From Deltaproteobacteria bacterium (lineage in GTDB: Bacteria; Myxococcota_A; Polyangia; Polyangiales; Polyangiaceae), in the NCBI GenBank assembly GCA_016209145.1, contig JACQWT010000158.1:1-37897 (forward strand): 37,897 nucleotides of DNA, given 5' to 3'. Below the pieces are notes generated by a model. It was not told the DNA's origin. It made no database searches and saw only the letters and a list, made by a program, of their open reading frames with translations. Every line of letters starts with the position of its first letter. Position 1 is the stretch's first letter. Positions 5,221 through 36,981 of this stretch are shown piece by piece. A program made the translations under genes and the position numbers.

Positions 5221-6069
5221 ATGAAACGACTCACCACCCCCACGGTGCTCTGCGCGCTCTCGGGCGCTGCGTTCCTGCTCGTCGGCTCCCCGGCCCGGGC
5301 CGGCATCGAGGCCTGCGGCAACATCGACGTCGACGCCAGCGCCAAGTGCGAGGTGAAGTTGACGGGCGGCTGCACCGTCATGTGCGAGCCGATCAGCTTC
5401 ACGGCCGCGTGCGACGCCAAATGCAGCGGCCAATGCAACGTCAGCCTCGACGTGGAATGCAAGGGAAGCTGCGAGGCCGAGTGCTCGGGCCAGTGCGAGG
5501 CAGATCCCGGCAAGTTCGACTGCGAGGCCAAGTGCGAGGGCCAGTGCGGCGGCGAGTGCAGCGGCAAGTGCTCGTCCAGCGACGACAAGAGCGCCTGCGA
5601 GGGCTCGTGCAAGGCGACCTGCTCGGGCGAGTGCGGCGCCTCCTGCGAGGTCGTGCCGCCCCAGGCCAAGTGCGAGGCCAAGTGCGAGGCCCAGTGCGAG
5701 GGGTACTGCAAGGCCGAGGCCAAGGTCGACTGCGATATCGACTGCCACGCCGGCTGCGTGGTCGACCTCAAGGGCGGCTGCGAGGCCGCGTGCGAAGAAC
5801 CGGAGGGCGCGCTGTTCTGCGACGGCCAGTACGTCGACGACGGCGGCAACCTGCAGGAGTGCATCGACTCGCTCAAGGCCCAGCTCAACATCGTGGTGAC
5901 GGGGCAGGCCAGTGCGGACTGCTCGGGCAGTGAGTGCACTGCCGAGGCCGAAGGCAGCGTGAGCTGCGCCACGGCGCCCCAGACAAGGGGCGGCGTCGCC
6001 TGGTTCGCGGCCCTGGTGGCGGCGATCGGCTTGACGGCGCTCGGCCGGCGGCGGCGGGGACGAAGCTAG
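5221..6069 (+). CDS. Secreted C-x3-C repeat protein with MYXO-CTERM-like tail
   Basis: A 282-residue secreted protein not assigned to a known function. It has a clear signal peptide with likely cleavage after SPARA (residue 27). About 35 cysteines follow, most in long runs of C-x3-C spacing, for example CEAKCEGQCGGECSGKC, with Glu, Lys, Gly and Gln between. A roughly 60-residue region with few cysteines comes next. The end is a hydrophobic helix (about 255-275) flanked by a Cys before it and RRRRGR after it, resembling the MYXO-CTERM sorting tail that anchors proteins to the myxobacterial cell surface. GAAGGAG about 8 bases before the ATG fixes the start; the frame continues upstream into UppP promoter sequence and is not coding there. 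The Cys spacing could give a disulphide rod or bind metal; the sequence does not decide. Confidence 0.75.
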   Translation: MKRLTTPTVLCALSGAAFLLVGSPARAGIEACGNIDVDASAKCEVKLTGGCTVMCEPISFTAACDAKCSGQCNVSLDVECKGSCEAECSGQCEADPGKFDCEAKCEGQCGGECSGKCSSSDDKSACEGSCKATCSGECGASCEVVPPQAKCEAKCEAQCEGYCKAEAKVDCDIDCHAGCVVDLKGGCEAACEEPEGALFCDGQYVDDGGNLQECIDSLKAQLNIVVTGQASADCSGSECTAEAEGSVSCATAPQTRGGVAWFAALVAAIGLTALGRRRRGRS

Positions 6070-6078
6070 CCTGGGAGG

Positions 6079-7287
6079 CTAGCCCTTGGCCCGCAGGACG
6101 AGCTTGCGCAGCACGGCGGCGGCCAGCTTGTCGAGCGCACCGTTGAGCTGCCCGCAGCTTGTCAGGGCCACGAAGCCGAGCTGGTGCTCGGGCAGGAACA
6201 TGACGACCGCGGCGTAGAAGCGCGTGGCGCCCACGTGCGAAACGGCGTGGCCGGCGGCGCGCAGCTCGGAGACCACCCAGCCCAGGCCGGTGCCCTGCCC
6301 GCTCGCGCGCGCGAAGCCGCCGAGCAGGTGCGACTCGCGCACCGAGGCGTTGCGCAGCGGCTCCCTATCGGGCCGGGCGTCCGGGGGCCAGGCCGTCAAG
6401 TGGAAGGCCGCGTAGCGGATCATGTCGTCCAGGCTGGCGTAGAGGCCGCCCAGGGCCTCGGCCGCGCCCATCCTCCAGTGCGGGCCCGTCACGTACTTCT
6501 CGCCCTCGAGGGCGTAGCCCGTGGCGAGCCTTCCCGGCGGGACCTGCTCGGCCTCCCAAGCCGTGCCGCTCATCCCCAGAGGCGCCAGGATCTCTTCGCT
6601 CACGTAGCGTCGGTAGGGGACGCCGCTGGCCCGGCCCACCACGAGCCCGAGCAGGCCGAACCCGAGATTCGAGTAGACGTGGTCGGTGCCCGGCACGTGC
6701 TCCAGTCGCAGCCCCTTCAGGCCCGCCACGAGATCGGCCTCGCTCACCGGCTCGGGCCGGGACGCGTAGCTGAGCCTTCCGAGCCGCGGCAGGCCGGAGC
6801 TGTGCGTGAGCAGATGGCGCGAAGTGACAAGCGGGCTGTCGAGGGTCGGGTAGAGCACTTCGCCCAACTCGGGCAGCCAGGCCACGGCCGGGCTGTCGAG
6901 CGCGAGCAGCCCCTCGTCGCGCAGGCGCAGCATCGCCATGGCGGTCACGGTCTTGGTGACCGAACCGATGCGAAAGACCGTGTGCGCCGAAAGCTCTCCG
7001 CCCGCAGACAGGTCGCGCACGCCGAAGACGCGCGACCAGAGGAGCTCGCCCCCATCCAGCACCGCCGCCGCGAGCGCCGGCATGCGCTCGGCGCCGAAGC
7101 GCTCGTAGACCATGGCCTCGATCTCGGGGCGCGCGTCCAGGATGCGCTGGCGGCGTGCCTGCCGGCCGGGATCGGCCGCGGCAGGGCGCAGGCCGTAACG
7201 CTGGGGATACTCCGGCGCCGGGACGCGCTCGGCGCAGCCCGTAAGCAACAGCACCGCGGTGAGCGCCAGAGCGCGCGTCGCCCTCAT
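6079..7287 (-). CDS. Serine beta-lactamase-fold hydrolase, lipoprotein
   Basis: A 402-residue member of the serine hydrolase family that includes class C beta-lactamases, DD-peptidases and esterases. The signal ends in a lipobox (LLTGC), so the enzyme should be lipid-anchored outside the cytoplasm. The nucleophile motif S-x-x-K is SVTK, near residue 90 in GSVTKTVTAMAML. The second motif is Y-S-N in HVYSNLGFGLLG, and the third is H-V-G late in the protein. LLTHSSGLP between the first two is also typical. The substrate cannot be predicted; many members are esterases or peptidases rather than drug-resistance enzymes. The ATG at 7287 lies inside a 12-bp direct repeat that borders repeat copy 2, so its own upstream region has been replaced by the element and no ribosome site is visible. 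The propeller lipoprotein gene upstream ends 25 bp before the other copy of this start codon. Confidence 0.85.
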   Translation of the reverse strand: MRATRALALTAVLLLTGCAERVPAPEYPQRYGLRPAAADPGRQARRQRILDARPEIEAMVYERFGAERMPALAAAVLDGGELLWSRVFGVRDLSAGGELSAHTVFRIGSVTKTVTAMAMLRLRDEGLLALDSPAVAWLPELGEVLYPTLDSPLVTSRHLLTHSSGLPRLGRLSYASRPEPVSEADLVAGLKGLRLEHVPGTDHVYSNLGFGLLGLVVGRASGVPYRRYVSEEILAPLGMSGTAWEAEQVPPGRLATGYALEGEKYVTGPHWRMGAAEALGGLYASLDDMIRYAAFHLTAWPPDARPDREPLRNASVRESHLLGGFARASGQGTGLGWVVSELRAAGHAVSHVGATRFYAAVVMFLPEHQLGFVALTSCGQLNGALDKLAAAVLRKLVLRAKG

Positions 7288-34391: not shown

Positions 34392-34763
34392 GGTGAAGCT
34401 CCCGCGCGCCGGGCCGACCTGCTGGCCCGGCGTGCGAGTAGGGCACGTTGGATGCCAGGCCGGCGCGGACGCACCAGCCGGCTGTTATCGCGGACTTCTA
34501 CGGGCGGGGGCGCTCTCGGCCAGGGATCCCATGTCTGCCTCGGGCGTTCATTGCGGCGACATGTTCGCGGAGTAGACAACAGACCGGACACGCCGGCCGA
34601 TGCCGGGGACGCGCACGTCTTGATTGGGGTCGATCATGTGCCGGGCCGCTCGCAGTCCTCGACGGCGTCGCCCCCGAGGCGCACTACCCCCGACATCCCG
34701 CGGATCGTCTTCCAGCACGCTGTCCTGGAGCAACTTGCCCTCGGTGTTGCCTGGAACTAGATT
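34392..34763. other. Gap upstream of AbiE-like operon and protease gene
   Basis: A 372-bp stretch between the divergent protease gene and the AbiE-like operon. No gene or tRNA is supported. It must carry both promoters. A downstream frame (about 34630-34760, ending ...QLALGVAWN) could be read as the tail of something lost, but I recognise no family in it. Confidence 0.4.
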
Positions 34764-34782
34764 GTTGCACGAGACGCGCAAC
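34764..34782 (+). promoter_or_regulatory. Inverted repeat touching the AbiEi start codon
   Basis: GTTGC (34764-34768) and GCAAC (34778-34782) form an inverted repeat separated by nine bases, ending directly before the ATG at 34783. No ribosome-binding sequence is visible here. AbiEi-type antitoxins repress their own operon by binding inverted repeats near the promoter, so this may be its operator, or the site may control translation. The repeat is short and could be chance. Confidence 0.35.
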
Positions 34783-35832
34783 ATGGTCGCCCGAGACAAC
34801 ACGCTGGTCCGCGAGGCACTCCGCGAGCTTCGGCGACGGCTTCCGCCGGGCTGGAGCGTGAGCGAGCCGGAGATCGAGCCGGCCTCGCGCGTCATCGACG
34901 CGGAGGCCGCGGTCACCGCGCCCGGCCGCCGGACGGGGCCGATCTCCATCGAGGCCCGAGCCCGCCTCGACCCGAAGGGCGTCCTGCCCCTCGTCGAAGC
35001 CATGCGCCGCACCCCCTCGCGCGGGCCACTGATCGTGGTGTCCCGCTACTTGAGTGAAGCCACTAGGGATCGCCTCCGAGAGCGTGATGTCGGCTATCTC
35101 GACCTCACGGGCAACGTGCGCATCGTCGTGCCCCGGCCGGGCCTCTTCATCGAGACCCACGGTGCCGCGGAAGACCCCGACCGCGAGCGGAGACCTGCCC
35201 GCTCGCTGCGTGGTCCGAAGGCGGGCCGGATCGTGCGGGCCCTGGTCGACCGCAAGCGGCCGCCCGGCGTCCGCGAGCTCGGCGCGATTACGAAGATCGA
35301 TGCCGGCTACGTCTCGCGTGTGCTCGCCTTCCTCGACACGGAAGCGCTCGTAACGCGCGTCGGCCGCGGACGCGTGCAGAGCGTGGACTGGCCGGCGCTG
35401 CTCCGACGACGGGCACGAGACGCTCCCCTCGAGTCACGCGGACGGACGCGCACGTACCTCCATCCGCGAGGTCTGTCGGCGCTGGTTGCCCGGCTCGCGA
35501 AGTCCGACGAACGGTACGCGATCACCGGAGGTCTGGCTGCCGCCGCCTTCGCACCGACCGCTCCCGCACGCCTGGCGACGATCTGGGCTCGGGACGCAGC
35601 GCAGGCTGCGCCGCGACTCGGTCTCCGGCCGGTCGAGGCCGGGGCAAACGTGCTGCTCATCGAGCCCGGCGACGACGGAGTGTTCGAGGGAGCAGCCCAG
35701 CGCGACGGCCTCTGGTACGCCGCTCCGAGCCAGGTCGCGGTAGACCTGCTGACGAGTCCCGGACGGGGGCCCGCCGAGGGTGAAGAGCTGATCGGCTGGA
35801 TGCTGGCGAACGAGGAGGCGTGGCGCCGATGA
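34783..35832 (+). CDS. AbiEi-like winged-helix antitoxin/regulator
   Basis: A 349-residue protein resembling the AbiEi family of antitoxin regulators. Residues 1-135 carry the segment VVSRYLSEATRDRLRERDVG, followed by Y-L-D-L-T-G-N, the D-x-x-G-N motif of this family. A winged helix-turn-helix follows at about 145-200 (V-R-E-L-G-A-I-T-K-I-D-A-G-Y-V-S-R-V-L), then a C-terminal domain (from about 240) with Y-A-I-T-G-G-L-A-A-A, reminiscent of a degenerate nucleotidyltransferase fold. In AbiE systems this protein represses the operon and neutralises the toxin, in a phage-abortive type IV toxin-antitoxin system. The ATG at 34783 begins the conserved part; the frame upstream is open to 34624 but is not supported. 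The stop overlaps the next start as ATGA. Function is inferred from the pattern. Confidence 0.65.
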   Translation: MVARDNTLVREALRELRRRLPPGWSVSEPEIEPASRVIDAEAAVTAPGRRTGPISIEARARLDPKGVLPLVEAMRRTPSRGPLIVVSRYLSEATRDRLRERDVGYLDLTGNVRIVVPRPGLFIETHGAAEDPDRERRPARSLRGPKAGRIVRALVDRKRPPGVRELGAITKIDAGYVSRVLAFLDTEALVTRVGRGRVQSVDWPALLRRRARDAPLESRGRTRTYLHPRGLSALVARLAKSDERYAITGGLAAAAFAPTAPARLATIWARDAAQAAPRLGLRPVEAGANVLLIEPGDDGVFEGAAQRDGLWYAAPSQVAVDLLTSPGRGPAEGEELIGWMLANEEAWRR

Positions 35833-36665
35833 GCGAGGCGGATGAGCTGTACGTGCTGGCGCGCCGCGTTCTGCTCGACGCTCTGGCTGCGCTGGGCCCG
35901 CACCGCGACGCCATCGTGCTCGTCGGTGCGCAGGCCGTGTACCTGCGCGTCGGTGAGGCCGACCTTGCCGTCGCACCCTTCACGACGGACGGCGATCTCG
36001 CCATCGATCCAGCCGTGCTCGCCGGGATCCCGCCGCTCGAGCGGGCCTTGATGGAAGCGGGCTTCCTCCCGAAGACGAAGGACTCGGTAGGCGTCTGGAT
36101 CACGAAGCGCCCGACGAGTCGGAGCCCGGACACGGAGGTCGCCCTCGACCTGCTCGTGCCGGCGTCGGTGAGCCCCGGCACGGGACGGCGAGCAGCGTGC
36201 CTGCCCGGCCATGACTCCCGCGCAGCTCGCATCGTGAGAGGGCTCGACGGCGCCATCGTCGATGCGGACGTGATGCGCCTGGCGGCTCTCGATGCGGCGG
36301 ACGCACGCGCGTTCGACCTGCGGGTCGCCGGACCGGCGGCCTTGCTCGTCGGCAAGGTGCACAAGATCGGCGAGCGCCATGGCACCGACCGCCAGAGCGA
36401 CAAGGATGCGCTCGACGTCCTCCGACTGCTGCGAGGCACCGAGACCGACGACCTCGCTACGCGCTACGACAAGCTGCTCGCCGACGCGCGATCCGCCGAT
36501 GCCGCGAGAACGGGGCGTGACCTCCTCGAGACGCAGTTCGCCGCGCGTGCCGGGATCGGCGTCCAGATGGCTGTTCGCTCCGCGGGCGCCCTCGCCGACG
36601 CGGACGAAATCGCGGCGTCGTGTGAGGCGCTCGCCAGAGAACTCCTCGCGTCGCTCGATGGCTGA
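35829..36665 (+). CDS. AbiEii-like nucleotidyltransferase toxin
   Basis: A 278-residue protein with the features of a nucleotidyltransferase-fold toxin partner. The N-terminal V-L-V-G-A-Q-A-V-Y-L-R resembles the G-G-x-A loop of this fold, and T-T-D-G-D-L-A-I-D gives the D-x-D metal-binding pair (the Asp residues of DGDLAID). A later V-A-L-D-L-L-V-P strand may give the third acidic residue. V-G-K-V-H-K-I-G-E-R then S-D-K-D-A-L-D-V-L-R-L-L matches the K-x-x-D-x-x-D region of AbiEii-type proteins. It starts at ATG 35829, overlapping the antitoxin stop by four bases, so the two are translated in tandem. AbiEii-like toxins modify tRNA or other targets with a nucleotide; the target here cannot be known. 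I would call it a probable homologue. Confidence 0.65.
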   Translation: MSEADELYVLARRVLLDALAALGPHRDAIVLVGAQAVYLRVGEADLAVAPFTTDGDLAIDPAVLAGIPPLERALMEAGFLPKTKDSVGVWITKRPTSRSPDTEVALDLLVPASVSPGTGRRAACLPGHDSRAARIVRGLDGAIVDADVMRLAALDAADARAFDLRVAGPAALLVGKVHKIGERHGTDRQSDKDALDVLRLLRGTETDDLATRYDKLLADARSADAARTGRDLLETQFAARAGIGVQMAVRSAGALADADEIAASCEALARELLASLDG

Positions 36666-36864
36666 GCCGCTGCGGCTGCCCGACGGCACGCTGACGCGCT
36701 CGGTGACCCGTGGCACGCAGCGCGCCGCCGGCGTCCTGGCAGCGCTCGGCATCAAGGAGCTGGATCCACCGCAACCAGCCCCGAAGCCCCGTGTGGTGAC
36801 AAACCGGCCAGCCCGCCCCAGCAATTCCGGCCGCTTCGCGGCCGAAGTGTCAAATCTGGGCTAG
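36658..36864 (+). CDS. Small third gene of the AbiE-like operon
   Basis: A 68-residue protein whose ATG (36658) overlaps the nucleotidyltransferase stop by eight bases (ATGGCTGA), so it is coupled to it. It is not recognised. The N-terminal half is helical (T-R-G-T-Q-R-A-A-G-V-L-A-A-L-G-I-K); the second half is Pro/Arg/Ala-rich and probably disordered. The TAG stop is part of the CTAG duplicated by the MITE insertion, so the gene probably kept its original stop, and the element begins right at its end. Confidence 0.5.
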   Translation: MAEPLRLPDGTLTRSVTRGTQRAAGVLAALGIKELDPPQPAPKPRVVTNRPARPSNSGRFAAEVSNLG

Positions 36865-36981
36865 GAGTGTGTCGGAGAAAGCGTGCTCGAAATGGTCCAA
36901 GTTATCGAAATCGCTCACTTTGCTCTGACGCTGGAACCGAACAATTCCGCGCACTTAGTTTTTTCTCCGACAGACTCCTAG
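36861..36981. mobile_element. MITE-like element with CTAG duplication
   Basis: A 121-bp segment with terminal inverted repeats of about 16 bases: GAGTGTGTCGGAGAAA (36865-36880) and, in reverse complement, GAGTCTGTCGGAGAAA (36962-36977), which differ at one base. CTAG flanks it on both sides (36861-36864 and 36978-36981), a 4-bp target duplication of the YTAR type favoured by some IS5-group elements. It has no room for a transposase, and its interior is more AT-rich than its surroundings. It is probably a non-autonomous derivative moved by a full insertion sequence elsewhere. Confidence 0.85.

Follow-up and report, generated by a model that had tools for sequence, protein, structure and literature searches.

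We examined a 37,897-nt stretch of contig JACQWT010000158.1 (the window), taken from a 7.9-Mb draft genome of a Deltaproteobacteria bacterium. Two coupled genes in the window, followed by a small overlapping open reading frame (ORF), are quite likely to form a two-gene, type IV-like, autorepressed nucleotidyltransferase toxin–antitoxin (TA) module of the AbiE superfamily, to which the small third frame would be unrelated. This reading draws on sequence comparison, principally the pairing of the two genes in relatives, the motifs of the putative toxin and a conserved operator at the first start codon. An initial annotation of the same DNA had described the three frames, their ATGA and 8-base overlaps, a D-x-x-G-N motif in the first protein (D107-L-T-G-N111) and a D-x-D motif in the second (D54-G-D56), and we located all of these as claimed. 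The features are as follows:

34735–34763, plus strand: candidate promoter, placed by eye (−35 TTGCCC at 34735–34740, 17-nt spacer, −10 TAGATT at 34758–34763)
34746–34800, plus strand: four-half-site operator (GTTGC at 34746–34750, TGTTGC at 34763–34768, GCAACA at 34778–34783, ACAAC at 34796–34800)
34783–35832, plus strand: ORF1, putative antitoxin/repressor, 349 aa (~1–127 restriction-endonuclease-like fold, ~140–200 winged helix, ~230–340 AbiEi_2-like C-terminal domain)
35829–36665, plus strand: ORF2, nucleotidyltransferase and putative toxin, 278 aa, NTP_transf_8 (PF12281), sharing the ATGA overlap with ORF1
36658–36864, plus strand: ORF3, orphan frame, 68 aa, overlapping ORF2 by 8 bases; outside the TA module
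36865–36977 (113 bp): miniature inverted-repeat transposable element (MITE), with CTAG duplications at 36861–36864 and 36978–36981; outside the TA module

The proposed antitoxin–nucleotidyltransferase pair

Family match and motif content identify gene 2 as a nucleotidyltransferase. ORF2 scored 28.6 bits against Pfam NTP_transf_8 (curated cut-off 26.3) and carries motifs I–IV of AbiEii/MenT proteins (hG[G/S/A], DxD, K-x6-R and +DxxD) as G33(-A34), T52-x-D54-G-D56, K176/R183 and K192-D193-x-x-D196. Mutations in each of these motifs abolish AbiEii toxicity (PMC3985639; this and the other papers are cited from excerpts). In an alignment of 23 toxin sequences, G33, D54, D56, K176, K192 and D193 were invariant, and R183 and D196 were each kept in 22. 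Column 52, two residues ahead of the first catalytic aspartate, was always Ser or Thr (20 Thr and three Ser), with Thr in the window. NTP_transf_8 was matched by 13 of the 23; the ORF2 protein itself gave no match to AbiEii (PF08843) in the Pfam scan, whereas six of the 23 relatives did, and some members of the alignment matched PADLOC AbiEii models. A profile of close relatives aligned with an AbiEii-type nucleotidyltransferase profile at a probability of 99.4 and an E-value of 1.7e-21 (HHalign). A search of solved structures with the toxin family returned no credible sequence match.

ORF1 appears to be tripartite, with a non-catalytic, decayed nuclease-like N-terminal domain of 127 residues, a central winged helix behind it and a C-terminal AbiEi_2-like antitoxin domain. 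Among 28 aligned antitoxins, 11 matched Pfam AbiEi_2 (PF09952; best 7.1e-13), none matched any other AbiEi family, and 18 matched a Crp-type helix-turn-helix; the antitoxin of locus L004, 55% identical to ORF1, reached AbiEi_2 only at E 0.029. Residues D107, G110 and N111 were invariant throughout the alignment. An AlphaFold model of ORF1, built on a three-sequence alignment, had a predicted local distance difference test (pLDDT) score of ~80 over residues 1–127 and mostly <50 over the remainder. The lack of an AbiEi match for ORF1 in the structure library is therefore uninformative, the C-terminal domain having been modeled at pLDDT <50. The N-terminal domain gave a best Z of 8.5 over 101 residues, with a Foldseek E-value of only 0.011, and its top structural matches were mostly what we take to be PD-(D/E)XK-fold nucleases (AF1548, EndoMS/NucS, PaqCI, Can2, Card1 and MspJI). 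The catalytic D...(D/E)xK pattern was not kept (D39 in 13, E57 in 15 and K59 in nine of the 28 proteins), and the window reads D39...E57-A-R59 with Arg replacing Lys; with this pattern lost, restriction-type catalysis by ORF1 is unlikely. The literature that we searched held no description of a nuclease-fold domain in such antitoxins.

We found toxin homologues in 30 of 282 genomes of the phylum (E ≤1e-3) and in 16 of 317 genomes of the class (E ≤1e-20), our own genome counted in both. Of the 21 strong phylum loci, 20 had an antitoxin homologue beside the toxin, and the other starts partway into the toxin at the edge of a contig. The 11 further independent loci from the class search also had such a homologue, which stood ahead of the toxin wherever the contig permitted. 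The pair also occurs on Streptomyces and Rhodococcus plasmids, and a distant relative on a Sphingomonas plasmid is annotated AbiEi + AbiEii/AbiGii. Together with the AbiEi_2, NTP_transf_8 and AbiEii matches among the relatives, this annotation bears out the earlier description of genes 1 and 2 as AbiEi- and AbiEii-like. The surroundings of the module differed in each relative. A phage or prophage origin was rejected, as the toxin had no match in 50,697 phage records or viral contigs.

The distribution bears on another explanation, in which the pair is no TA system and consists of a regulator and a housekeeping nucleotidyltransferase, such as an antibiotic- or tRNA-modifying enzyme. The name of PF12281 is merely "Nucleotidyltransferase," and the TA reading is itself one from sequence. 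We nevertheless consider a housekeeping role unlikely, given the patchy distribution in phylum and class, the occurrence on plasmids, the differing surroundings, the AbiEi/AbiEii annotation of relatives and the presence of the MenT/AbiEii motif residues.

A few loci departed from the intact arrangement. The toxin was frameshifted at L005 and L032, where the antitoxin was intact, and at L008, where the antitoxin was cut by the contig edge; these frameshifts may reflect decay or draft error. At L032, a second, distant AbiEi-like gene (6012–7067, minus strand) faces the module with the frameshifted toxin.

A four-half-site operator at the first start codon

Comparison across loci shows a conserved operator around the first ATG, probably an autoregulatory one. 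Its inner inverted repeat, TGTTGC-N9-GCAACA (34763–34783), ends on the A of the ORF1 ATG, and the right outer half-site falls within the ORF1 coding sequence. The repeat is no chance occurrence: The exact inner pattern has a single match in the 7.9-Mb genome, and palindromes near the antitoxin start that combine a 9-nt spacer with arms of 6 bp or longer were present at 18 of 37 related loci versus 1.25 expected; other spacers accounted for 0 to 5 loci.

We anchored 31 loci on their inner half-sites, which are thus present in 31/31 by construction; the outer half-sites were not used for anchoring. An outer GTT stood 17–18 bp to the left of the inner half-site in 29 of the 31 and an outer AAC 17–18 bp to the right in 30, against a background of ~0.018 per position. 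Left out of the 31 were L008, L014 and L091 (truncated ahead of the start), L021 (whose contig opens within the operator), L086 (unanchored; it has the operator, but the start lies another 20 nt on), L090 (operator absent), L088/L092 (the L032 locus again), L001 (which is the window, counted as W), and the distant loci L023–L030 and L066 and plasmid loci L068–L075, at which we saw other or no clear repeats. L015, L018 and L022 form a set of near-identical copies. The GTTGC/GCAAC repeat touching the first ATG, proposed in the initial annotation as a possible self-repression site, is accordingly real as a repeat and conserved in its four-half-site form, and its autoregulatory role is probable.

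Eleven of the 31 loci, including L080, L082, L084 and L085, had a second palindrome 65–71 bp upstream of the first, which the window does not have; this arrangement recalls the paired repeats of Rv2827c (excerpts of PMC7319586). The candidate promoter is weak, with eight of 12 consensus matches, and is interleaved with the operator half-sites; a consensus promoter scan found none, the candidate falling below its threshold. Transcription is predicted to start 12–14 nt before the ATG.

The inner half-sites fell into three classes: GTTGC at 16 loci, GTTCC at 12 and GTTTC at four, one of the last (L021) being outside the 31 anchored loci. Only antitoxin columns 146, 176 and 220 had residues that did not overlap across the classes. 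Columns 146 and 176 are in the winged helix, 176 in its recognition helix, and residue 176 was Tyr in the GTTGC class, Thr or Ser in the GTTCC class and Val in the GTTTC class. A suggestive picture emerges in which residue 176 changes together with the variable operator base. In a tree built without the winged helix, the classes followed clades, with one clade each for GTTGC and GTTTC and one or two for GTTCC; the helix–base covariation is thus suggestive only, and its value as independent proof of DNA recognition is weakened. At L087, on the downstream side of the toxin, an operator of the GTTGT/GCAAC type lies ~200 bp beyond a GTTCC-type module, an arrangement that suggests stacked AbiE-like modules with different operator specificities.

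The small third frame and the adjoining MITE

By the same kinds of comparison, ORF3 is outside the system, an orphan frame beside a MITE insertion. The initial annotation had suggested that such a trio may hide a new defense variant, proposed searching other genomes for whether the third gene always follows the pair, and named its absence from all other pairs as a refutation. That search found no ORF3 homologue after any of the 30 related toxins whose 3′ end was readable (tblastn; 19 + 11 loci), and a variant that includes the third gene is not supported. The ORF3-free loci include four close relatives, L080 (84% toxin identity), L081 (83%), L082 (78%) and L083 (77%), in which the DNA after the toxin was different each time. 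There was no credible ORF3 relative in 72,556 plasmids (best match E 0.3) or in the 282 phylum genomes, among which our own copy alone stood out; 269 of the 282 yielded some match at E ≤1, and the next-best one (3.8e-4) reflected composition and lay apart from any antitoxin–toxin pair of this kind. With no homologue in relatives and no credible plasmid or genome relative, we rejected ORF3 as a conserved third gene.

Some features do favor a true trio, in which ORF3 would be a functional third component (an accessory antitoxin or regulator) of a new AbiE variant. It overlaps ORF2 by 8 bases. Its codon score of 0.065 is native-like: It falls within the range of true-frame windows (0.23 ± 0.11, minimum −0.04) and exceeds that of all off-frame windows (maximum −0.07). 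In some relatives a small frame likewise runs across the toxin stop, for example at L006 (65 aa) and L085 (91 aa), both ATGA-coupled; with L007, these represent a sub-clade that has such coupling. However, the small frames at L006, L007 and L085 are unrelated to ORF3, and L006 and L007, which share DNA after the toxin stop, have frames that are out of register with each other. Moreover, the last 57 bp of ORF3 (36806–36862) resemble an interspersed repeat, being 86% identical to an intergenic stretch elsewhere in this genome, on contig C357 (L064 1386–1442). Given these points and the homology searches, including the four relatives at 77%–84% toxin identity, we regard a true trio as very improbable. 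The 57-bp stretch carries a GGCCGC hairpin and resembles the terminus of an old mobile element.

The MITE that directly follows has imperfect terminal inverted repeats and at least 43 matches in this draft genome; 18 of the 20 loci examined were complete, and all 18 complete copies were CTAG-flanked. The stop codon of ORF3 (TAG) sits within the CTAG target duplication. As CTAG stands on either side of the MITE, the stop is independent of the insertion, and the idea that the MITE made it was rejected: The TAG belongs to the target, copied on both sides.

A possible, though doubtful, reading takes ORF3 for a genuine small gene, or a gene remnant, with no tie to the pair, beside which the TA module inserted or which the MITE disturbed. 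Its native-like codon use, its repeat-like 3′ end and the MITE insertion at its stop are compatible with this. On the other side, we found no relative showing that ORF3 was ever a gene, and its length is expected by chance, as 45% of simulated sequences of the same composition contained an ORF of 68 aa or more that began within a 60-nt stretch.

Divergent from the pair, the window encodes a large subtilase-family protein (PF00082; 30936–34391, minus strand). Other family matches among ten window proteins scanned were to a zinc carboxypeptidase, an alginate-export porin, two kinases and a TonB receptor; there was no defense gene among the matches of these ten.

Relation to known systems and proposed mechanism

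The pair appears to belong to the COG4861/AbiEi_2–DUF1814 type, named in the excerpts of PMC3985639, PMC3968373 and PMC7251935, through its relatives rather than directly. PF09952 corresponds to COG4861 (PMC7251935), Rv0836c–Rv0837c of Mycobacterium tuberculosis is named DUF1814–COG4861 (PMC3968373), and MenT2 is Rv0836c (PMC10435456). As in this COG4861–COG4849/DUF1814 branch (M. tuberculosis Rv0837c–Rv0836c), the regulator gene precedes the nucleotidyltransferase gene, and homologues of the two window genes match AbiEi_2 and AbiEii/NTP_transf_8. The window differs in that ORF1 is too distant for a direct PF09952 match and ORF2 matches PF12281, not PF08843. A restriction-endonuclease-like domain is not described for the antitoxins of this branch in the excerpts of PMC7251935, PMC3968373 and PMC10435456.

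The pair is not a classical COG5340 AbiE: ORF1 departs from the classical AbiEi order of an N-terminal winged helix and a C-terminal antitoxin domain, and PADLOC gave no match. It resembles AbiE of Streptococcus agalactiae (COG5340–COG2253, type IV) in its bicistronic layout, 4-nt overlap and nucleotidyltransferase motifs I–IV (PMC3985639). That system autorepresses through promoter repeats, AbiEi binding repeats that contain the TGTTGC/GCAACA half-site also found in the window (PMC3985639). In contrast, the winged helix of the window protein is central, and its operator, which extends into the coding sequence, has a 9-nt spacer and outer half-sites 17–18 bp away. The mycobacterial MenAT3 and MenAT4 (Rv1044–Rv1045 and Rv2827c–Rv2826c) share homologous toxin motifs with a Ser/Thr two residues before the first catalytic Asp, the position at which MenT1 (T39, ahead of D41) and MenT3 are phosphorylated (PMC11375011). 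The antitoxins of MenAT3 and MenAT4 bind multiple repeats (PMC7319586), and the window likewise has multiple half-sites; unlike ORF1, those antitoxins are COG5340 two-domain proteins, and the repeat spacing differs.

Several observations weigh against the module as we read it. None of the window's three proteins matched a PADLOC model, and the ORF1 protein alone matched no AbiEi family in the family scans, PF09952 included. The arginine of AbiEii motif II is absent (P50 in the window), being present at that column in one of 23 relatives, and the structure model of ORF2 was useless (mean pLDDT 36.8). The class relative L090 has no such operator, the helix–base link reflects about two independent changes, and the draft genome has an estimated contamination of 8%.

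The mechanism that we favor infers toxicity, the mode of neutralization, the tRNA target and phage defense from AbiE/MenT-type families. The central winged helix of ORF1 would bind the four half-sites over the promoter and the first ATG and shut off its own operon. ORF2, coupled through the ATGA overlap, would most likely inactivate tRNA or another acceptor by adding nucleotides, as its AbiEii/MenT motifs suggest, and ORF1 would most likely neutralize it by inducing phosphorylation of Thr52, the equivalent of the MenT1/MenT3 site. If the antitoxin were lost or titrated, for example through loss of the element or phage infection, the toxin would stop growth.

Apart from its unusual antitoxin and well-conserved control site, the system is mostly ordinary. 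We can picture, as a quite unlikely but concrete scheme, that the N-terminal domain lost catalysis and senses DNA that is invading or damaged, or an anti-nuclease protein made by a phage, and thereby frees the toxin; this branch would then be a DNA-sensing abortive-infection switch and more than a plain TA pair, with a residue-176 code against cross-repression between coexisting modules. With the trio set aside as a false lead, the pair can be placed, among AbiE-like systems, in the less studied COG4861/AbiEi_2 branch. The operator offers a precise, testable site with natural specificity variants, and the apparent nuclease-fold domain leads to a concrete hypothesis for how such systems may sense their trigger.
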